Positions 39,917 to 54,847 of a stretch of DNA of 64,000 bases are shown one piece after another. The notes beneath the pieces are model-generated. The model saw only the letters and a program-made list of their open reading frames with translations. It was not told the origin of the DNA and did no database searches. Position 1 is the stretch's first letter; each line of letters starts with the position of its first letter. This stretch comes from Phaeotremella fagi (Eukaryota; Basidiomycota; Tremellomycetes; Tremellales; Phaeotremellaceae): positions 2,046,001-2,110,000 of the forward strand of contig BCHU01000002.1 in NCBI GenBank assembly GCA_001599715.1. The letters are read 5' to 3'. The translations under genes and the position numbers were made by a program.

Positions 39917-39968
39917 CGCTTTTAGAAGATTAGCATTGCCCCTGCATAAGGATGACACGAAAAACTGT
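39917..39968 (+). pseudogene. U6 snRNA fragment (catalytic core region)
   Basis: AGAAGATTAGCAT, GCCCCTGC and AAGGATGACACG occur in the same order and spacing as in the highly conserved middle of U6 snRNA, with only a few substitutions. The upstream ACAGAGA box, the 5' stem and the 3' U-tail are missing, so this is a fragment rather than a working U6 gene. It lies between inverted copies of an 18-bp repeat. Confidence 0.7.
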
Positions 39969-39985
39969 CACACGGAGAATTGCGG
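39969..39985 (-). repeat. right inverted-repeat arm of the U6-derived element
   Basis: On the minus strand this reads CCGCAATTCTCCGTGTG, identical to the core of the solo copies at 11256 and 46305 and inverted relative to the left arm at 39899. Confidence 0.7.
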
Positions 39986-40194
39986 AAATACAGTATTTTT
40001 ATTGAAGTAACTATCTACCAAATCGTACACTAATGCGCCCATCGCCTTTCTGACATGATCAAGTAATGCATTGTGTCATCTAAAAGTACAAATTATAACC
40101 AAGTAAACAAAATTGAACATGTTACAGGAATAAACAACAAAACAAGGAGAGTCCGACTACCACCTCCCTTCAAAACACAAGAGTTCTAAGTCAA

Positions 40195-53690: not shown

Positions 53691-53782
53691 TGACCACTGG
53701 CGGGGTCGAACCGCCGACCTTGGCGTATAAAGTGCAATATTAACTATTAGCACCACGCTCTAACCAACTGAGCTAAGCGGCC
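53691..53782 (-). tRNA. tRNA-Ile (AAU anticodon) with 18-nt intron
   Basis: On the minus strand the acceptor GGCCGCT pairs with AGTGGTC (two G-U pairs), with discriminator A. The D-arm is GCTCAGTTGGTTAGAGC. The anticodon stem TGGTG/CGCCA encloses CTAATA and a final A, giving anticodon AAT, read as IAU. The T-arm has GGCGGTTCGACCCCGCC. An 18-nt intron starting GTTAATATTG sits after position 37, the standard place. A run of about 15 T follows the 3' end, a very strong Pol III terminator. It lies between NAA25 and U1-C. Confidence 0.95.
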
Positions 53783-53966
53783 GCAGACTTCTTCAGTCCA
53801 ATTTTGACTGGCTATCTTTCTGCAGAAAACATGAATCAATGAATCAATCGTCCCAGTCCTTTTTCGCCTTTACAAGTCGTTTCTTGTTTTTACCATCTAA
53901 TACTTTTTTGGTCACATTCTTATAAATCGATCCCACCACCAAATAAAGAAGCTAAATTTATCCACC

Positions 53967-54847
53967 ATGGGGAAATACTATTGTGAATAAGTATCTTTTC
54001 TTACTTTTGGATGTTGTCGTGAATCCGTTGTTTGATGGAACGAATGCTGACATTGAATTTTCTTTTCTTGATCCTCTACTTATTGCGATATGTGAGTTAT
54101 CAATATCTCCCCAGAGAACATGACTAACATTGGATGAACAGTTATTTGTGAGCATGATTCAACCTCTCACTTGATCGACATCAAGTCGTTATCCTAGATG
54201 TAGAAAGACTCTAGGACTTGTGGAAAGACGCTATCACGATCTTTTACTAACACCTTCCTTCCACTATAGGACGCACGATTCGATGAGTGCAAGAAAAGCT
54301 CATAACACAGGTCGTAATCATATCTCCAACGTACGAGATTATTTCGCTTCGCTAGGTCACGATAAAGCCCAAAGTATCATTGATCAAATTATCCAACAAC
54401 ACGAAGGAGGTGGTAGGAATATGATGATGCAAGCTCCCTCGATGAGATTAGGTGCTGGATTCTTAAATCCAATCCCACCACCAGGTAGTTGTAAGTTTTA
54501 TATCTCTTTCCACGTTAATTTGCATATACATGTGCTAAATAAACGACCTAGCATTTACACCATCGTTCCCACCAAACGGTTTCCCACCTCAAAACGGCGT
54601 TCCACCATTCAGACCACCCTTCCCACCAACCGGCGCACCAGTCAGACCACCTTTCCCACCAACAGGTGCTCCAAACGGCTACCCACCCTTCCCAGCTAAC
54701 GGTGTACCACCGCCTTCAAACTTTTCAGCTCCTCCCGCCGGTGGTCTCGCTGCTATGCCCCCTCCAACTTTCACTCCTGCTCAAGGCGTTCCTACAGGTG
54801 CTGCACCTGGAGTCCATCCGGATCGTCTAAGAATGATGGGTAATTAG
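53967..54847 (+). CDS. YHC1: U1 snRNP protein C (U1-C/Yhc1) with an apparent AT-AC intron
   Basis: U1-C stabilises pairing between U1 snRNA and the 5' splice site. Coding exons are 53967-53986, 54080-54091 (12 nt), 54142-54147 (6 nt), from 54270, and a final exon encoding a Pro/Phe/Gly-rich tail. Joined, they give MGKYYC-D-YCD-IYLTHDS followed by [13 protein letters not shown], the canonical U1-C zinc finger with both Cys and both His, then [17 protein letters not shown] and tail repeats ([18 protein letters not shown]) ending [10 protein letters not shown]. The first intron (93 nt) begins ATAAGT and ends CTAC, with a TGCTGAC branch site. I found no GT-AG choice that keeps the second Cys and frame. 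Unspliced message stops at once (TGT GAA TAA). The identity is secure; the intron ends need RNA confirmation. Confidence 0.92.
53987..54079 (+). other. U2-type AT-AC intron in U1-C
   Basis: The donor ATAAGT and acceptor TAC match the rare U2-type AT-AC class, not the U12 type (ATATCCTT). GAA TAA, an in-frame stop, straddles the donor. No AG precedes the TTATTGCGATAT exon in a usable place, so the ordinary rule fails here. Confidence 0.7.
54142..54147 (+). other. 6-nt microexon in U1-C
   Basis: TTATTT sits between a canonical acceptor (GAACAG, with TGACTAAC branch) and donor (GTGAGC). It completes Ile, adds Tyr and starts Leu in CD-I-Y-L-THDS, matching the YCDxYLTHDS core of U1-C. Confidence 0.72.

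Follow-up and report, generated by a model that had tools for sequence, protein, structure and literature searches.

Organization of the U1-C locus

The window, the whole stretch of 64,000 nucleotides that was analysed, contains at positions 53967-54847 of the forward strand a complete U1-C gene, whose five exons join to encode a protein of 184 amino acids. The identification as U1-C made in the initial annotation was borne out: the assembled protein scored 72.4 bits against the Pfam profile zf-U1 (PF06220) over positions 1-38 of 38, human U1-C (PDB) matched it with an E value of 2e-16, and the finger spacing C-x2-C-x14-H-x5-H is present at its N-terminus. Of the best 15 protein matches, those that covered at least 99% of the query showed 49-60% identity, and the named ones belong to Tremellomycetes. 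When the genome was searched with the zf-U1 profile, the single match was to the stretch of this gene in exon 4, and therefore the present copy should be functional. The features are as follows.

53967-53986, forward strand: coding part of exon 1 (MGKYYC plus GA), from splice-model enumeration
53987-54079, forward strand: intron 1, AT-AC, 93 nt, the sole boundary pair giving MGKYYCDYCDIYLTHDS in the enumeration
53987-53994, forward strand: AT donor ATAAGTAT, complementary at +2 to +8 to the assumed 5' end of U1
53988-53990, forward strand: in-frame TAA upon retention of intron 1, from translation of the unspliced reading
54047-54051, forward strand: branch-site-like CTGAC, whose A (54050) precedes the final base of the intron by 29 nt
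54076-54079, forward strand: CTAC acceptor, closing a 28-nt stretch with 75% pyrimidines
54080-54091, forward strand: exon 2, 12 nt, with the second finger cysteine (C9)
54092-54141, forward strand: intron 2, GT-AG, 50 nt
54142-54147, forward strand: exon 3, 6 nt
54148-54269, forward strand: intron 3, GT-AG, 122 nt
54270-54490, forward strand: exon 4, the remaining zinc finger
54491-54551, forward strand: intron 4, GT-AG, 61 nt
54552-54847, forward strand: exon 5, the proline-rich tail, with the stop TAG at 54845-54847

Three introns split the first 38 coding bases, leaving a 12-nt exon followed by a 6-nt exon, an arrangement absent from the initial annotation. Just upstream, on the opposite strand (53691-53782), lies a 92-nt tRNA gene that could hold an intron. 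A tRNA pseudouridine synthase gene, whose best match is 56% identical and comes from Cryptococcus neoformans, is positioned tail-to-tail with U1-C on the other strand. Matches to these two proteins formed 16 pairs seemingly on one contig, as judged from contigs equal in bases, including contigs of 4,204, 16,555 (TREMPRED_003147/003148), 19,352, and 28,157 bases; in Cutaneotrichosporon oleaginosum, the two matches are on contigs of unequal size.

Boundaries of intron 1

The letters of exon 1, intron 1, and exon 2 are ATGGGGAAATACTATTGTGA, ATAAGTATC...GATCCTCTAC, and TTATTGCGATAT, respectively, followed by gtgagt, and intron 1 starts with ATAAGTAT and finishes with CTAC. As had been noted before, no AG lies directly upstream of exon 2: the only AG inside the intron is at 53990-53991, within the donor, and the next one, past the exon 2 boundary, is at 54095. 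We enumerated splice models from the 11 ATGs in 53700-54200, with at most three introns of at least 30 nt each and with the frame open into exon 4. Among 973 models restricted to GT/GC-AG introns, none had the finger spacing, and the same was true of 20,511 models when GT-AC was added. Addition of AT-AG gave the spacing in 24 of 21,782 models, and MGKYYCDYCD was found in none of these 24; the GT/GC-AG, GT-AC, and AT-AG models, which never produced this start, were rejected. When AT-AC was added, the spacing appeared in 7 of 95,041 models and MGKYYCDYCD in 156, while the N-terminal MGKYYCDYCDIYLTHDS was obtained in exactly one. The earlier claim that the conserved start needs the ATAAGT donor together with the CTAC acceptor was confirmed by this enumeration. 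A narrower enumeration, with one ATG and the start of exon 4 fixed, gave 0 models. The AT...AC ends of intron 1 are determined by homology of the predicted protein.

The Pfam score alone cannot fix the N-terminus, because two hand-made shortened versions without the second cysteine also exceeded the cut-off of 22, with 39.3 and 36.1 bits. Another transcript path, for example one in which exon 2 is skipped by way of an AT-AG intron and the U1-C lacks C9-D-I, would keep the frame (MGKYYCDYLTHDS). However, such a product loses the second cysteine, a residue that 20 of 21 rows in alignment A1 share (rows chosen for a readable N-terminus; the exception is P0016), and we consider this path very unlikely.

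A single base separates each end of intron 1 from GT-AG, so that a sequencing or assembly error hiding a true GT-AG intron also has to be considered. An error is hard to invoke because both ends would need to be wrong, and two independent errors would have to yield exactly a known exotic pair; this explanation is highly improbable. For gene annotation, the structure carries a warning, since a pipeline limited to GT/GC-AG introns cannot find the N-terminus of the present U1-C, and the exons of 12 and 6 nt add to the difficulty.

Splice signals and spliceosome type

U2-type AT-AC introns have an ATAAGT-like donor. The signals of intron 1 are of this type, as had been proposed: the donor reads AAGTAT at +3 to +8, CTGAC is present, and TCCTTAAC, the U12 branch site, was not found in the intron. 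Between CTGAC and the acceptor the intron contains no AC. The boundaries, the signals, and the coding consequence of intron 1 can be read directly from the DNA.

The AT-AC ends would also fit removal by the minor (U12) spliceosome, and minor snRNA genes have been reported in a tremellomycete, C. oleaginosum, the only fungus with such genes in the available passages of Frey and Pucker (PMC7072748). However, the intron 1 donor is ATAAGT and not ATATCC, TCCTTAAC is missing, and the excerpt of the survey by Larue and colleagues (PMC10639083) gives no convincing minor introns in Basidiomycota. Furthermore, an Rfam search of the genome found U6 and U2 RNA genes, while U12 and U6atac gave no match with the same tool, and a genome profile search with zf-U11-48K had no match. 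The missing U12 and U6atac are weak evidence, because U1 was also missed by the Rfam search. The control genomes gave no match for any of the five RNA families, U6 and U2 included, and are uninformative. Taken with the donor and branch-site letters, removal of intron 1 by the minor spliceosome is extremely improbable.

The U1 5'-end pattern ATACTTAYCTG had 29 genome matches, 11 of them with T, compared with 22 for the reversed control pattern, and such matches can be opposite-strand splice donors. A loose Sm-like motif lies within 300 nt of 5 of the 29, and Rfam recognised no U1 at the 13 loci that were searched, which include 2 of these 5. A wider U1 pattern that included an assumed stem-loop motif had no match in the genome. 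None of the 29 matches was recognised as a dedicated U1 that would place a U opposite A+1 (ATACTTAT), and no U1 was found at all.

Several U6 copies were seen along the way. The window holds a fragment of the U6 3' half at 39923-40000 on the forward strand (39 bits, cut-off 44), with TTTTAG upstream and flanked by the inverted repeat TTCTCCGTGTG/CACACGGAGAA, which is likely a pseudogene. Elsewhere, a good U6 gene of 85 bits is followed 58 bases downstream by a degraded second copy of 24 bits, below the cut-off (L031:1501-1604 and 1663-1758), and a full-length copy of 66 bits on C7 differs in the internal stem region (L032:1501-1610).

Intron 1 is the one occurrence of ATAAGTAT combined with CTRAC and YAC in 353,533 bases (about 1.6% of the genome, both strands). 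A de novo count of coding-flanked introns gave 23 for AT..AC, 10-68 for other pairs, and 114 for GT-AG, and by motif alone AT combined with YAC was counted 16 times, against 10-100 times for the remaining 15 first dinucleotides in the same combination. Neither count indicates that AT-AC introns are frequent in this genome, and these counting methods are blind to a few.

Donor strength

We take the 5' end of U1 to be AUACUUACCUG, in which case the A at -1 and the A at +1 of the intron 1 donor are both opposite C. With this assumed end, the predicted duplex of the donor is -4.4 kcal/mol, and a G at +1 would give -7.5 kcal/mol. The predicted duplexes of introns 2, 3, and 4 are -5.5, -4.4, and -5.4 kcal/mol, respectively, and the median of 441 putative GT donors is -5.4 kcal/mol. 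The A at +1 lowers the predicted pairing with U1, but the total is still ordinary, because 27% of the 441 candidates are weaker. The initial annotation had described the site as weak and poorly handled. One paper describes AT-AC sites of the U2 type as inefficient in general, and an Arabidopsis prp18a mutant splices one of them less (excerpt of PMC5873924). Poor handling of this donor by U1 is not supported, the predicted duplex being the same as that of intron 3.

The A at +1 is expected to act mainly on catalysis and to be offset by the C at the last base. In 1993, Parker and Siliciano, whose study is cited in PMC6726248, reportedly observed that a last-base C compensates for an A at +1.

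The intron 1 site in relatives

The initial annotation had proposed comparing this intron across tremellomycetes, and we deduced intron positions in relatives from protein records only, scans of viral and genome contig sets having turned up no relative. Among 42 proteins, 19 start with MGKYYCDYCD, and MPKYYCDYCD, MGKYYCEYVS, and MGNYLTHDS occur once each; the other 20, including P0030, have no MGKYYCDYCD-like start in their own frame. P0030, which is on 49 contigs and is 100% identical to the U1-C of C. neoformans and C. decagattii over the shared part, continues into apparent intron sequence and was for this reason taken as an unspliced open reading frame. Before the exon it reads RWGNTTATTAIC, and in a shifted frame it is compatible with an unbroken MGKYYCDYCD, as 0 of 20,000 random peptides were, and then with GT at the intron 2 site. 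In P0021, MGKYYCDYCDIYL is followed by intron-like residues. These records, which read through the site unbroken, suggest that intron 1 is missing from the C. neoformans/gattii group (P0030) and from P0021, and hence that it is not class-wide.

P0016 of C. oleaginosum reads MGKYYCEYVSKH, as if an intron begins at the same base. The donor there may be of the GT or the AT type, since the codons GAR TAY GTN permit GTAYGT or ATAYGT. This record and P0026 of Vanrija albida (MGNYLTHDS) are odd U1-C N-termini in public records, perhaps misannotated near tiny exons or a non-canonical intron. As for intron 3, YLTHDS occurs in P0122 and P0030, and P0061, P0075, P0123, P0129, and P0038 diverge immediately ahead of THDS, which would fit the presence of intron 3 in these five. 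Introns 1-3 seem to have been gained or lost independently.

Possible feedback on U1-C

Retention of intron 1 leads to an immediate stop, as had been stated: the unspliced reading is MGKYYCE-stop, seven codons. It is conceivable that the mismatches with U1 at -1 and +1 make the intron unusually dependent on U1-C, so that U1-C activity would set the share of productive mRNA and the gene would sense its own dosage. The two A-C oppositions in the assumed U1 pairing and the stop after seven codons are in favour of such a sensor. In the available passages of Kondo and colleagues (PMC4383343), human U1-C strengthens binding to a number of donors with mismatches, +1C and -1C among them, A+1 not being among those tested. 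Moreover, in human cells U1C favours an unproductive form of U1-70K and controls its splicing (excerpt of PMC3798272), and the inefficiency attributed to U2-type AT-AC sites (PMC5873924, in part) leaves room for regulation.

However, the direction of the response is a difficulty. If A+1 behaves like +1C, low U1-C would cause more retention and less U1-C, because U1-C stabilises mismatched donors. The response would be self-reinforcing and not corrective, and the neat feedback loop of the initial annotation has the wrong sign for homeostasis, since the loss of U1-C would cut its own productive splicing (PMC4383343, the same passages); a corrective loop would require the opposite response, as for human U1C/U1-70K. 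In addition, the predicted U1 duplex equals that of intron 3, P0030 and P0021 apparently lack the intron, and knock-down of human U1-70K leaves the U1C mRNA level and splicing unchanged in the excerpt of PMC3798272. The relatives suggest that feedback based on intron 1 would not be common to the whole class. We consider a dosage-sensing role very unlikely. A version in which the AT-AC intron is selectively sensitive to U1-C and forms a self-reinforcing switch, self-sustaining above a threshold and losing the message below it, is decidedly unlikely; if true, an AT-type donor at the same site in P0016 of C. oleaginosum, a member of another order, would make the gate old. We regard autoregulation of U1-C in the present species as a hypothesis.

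Proposed interpretation

We suggest as probable that intron 1 is a real AT-AC intron of U1-C that is constitutively removed by the major (U2) spliceosome, that it arose from a GT-AG intron by two substitutions, and that its location in U1-C is coincidental. Positions +2 to +8 (UAAGUAU) would base-pair with U1 and CTGAC would serve as the branch site. The A at the first base would be matched by the C at the last base, a combination that would let the major spliceosome tolerate both changes. The two substitutions were most likely G1 to A and the last G to C, the removal is most likely constitutive, and the placement in U1-C is probably a coincidence. The splicing itself, the GT-AG ancestry, and the lack of regulation are what we infer. 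An AT-AC intron on whose removal a core splicing protein depends would offer a natural means of testing how the major spliceosome copes with the paired change of the first and last bases.

Comparison with known AT-AC introns and splicing feedback

Intron 1 belongs to a rare type, and its host gene is an apt one. Wu and Krainer are said to have described U2-type AT-AC introns (subclass II) in 1997; intron 1 resembles them in its ATAAGT-like donor, YAC acceptor, ordinary branch site, and presumed use of the major spliceosome, and differs in its fungal host and in its location within a U1 protein gene. AT-AC accounts for 0.019% of splice pairs in annotated fungal genomes (excerpt of PMC7072748) and for 69 of 14,305 junctions (0.5%) in Trichoderma RNA-seq (PMC4324775). 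Among the matches listed, and in the titles, beginnings of abstracts, and passages of the open-access literature, there was no description of an AT-AC intron in U1-C, and "AT-AC" is missing from the main text of three C. neoformans splicing or transcriptome papers.

According to excerpts of PMC6726248, only GT-AG was spliced more efficiently than AT-AC when the ends of a yeast intron were mutated, and AT-AC is not normally used by any of the standard introns of yeast. The SUT635 protointron described there, from Saccharomyces, a fungus without the minor spliceosome, resembles intron 1 in its AT-AC ends and fungal host, but it is part of a noncoding RNA and GT-AG is used there as an alternative, whereas removal of intron 1 is required for the protein. 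Caenorhabditis elegans, with about 42 likely AT-AC introns and seemingly without U11, U12, and U4atac (excerpt of PMC3033335), offers a parallel as a species that has AT-AC introns and apparently no minor snRNAs, the difference being that it is an animal.

With regard to feedback, the human U1C/U1-70K cross-regulation shares with the proposed loop a U1 protein level tied to splicing, but its target is the U1-70K pre-mRNA, it acts through a U1C-dependent 3' splice site, and it is negative (PMC3798272, in the available passages). Similarly, in the feedback on U11-48K and U11/U12-65K, genes for snRNP proteins are under the control of their own snRNP, but that loop uses a conserved enhancer and is negative (excerpt of PMC5473595).
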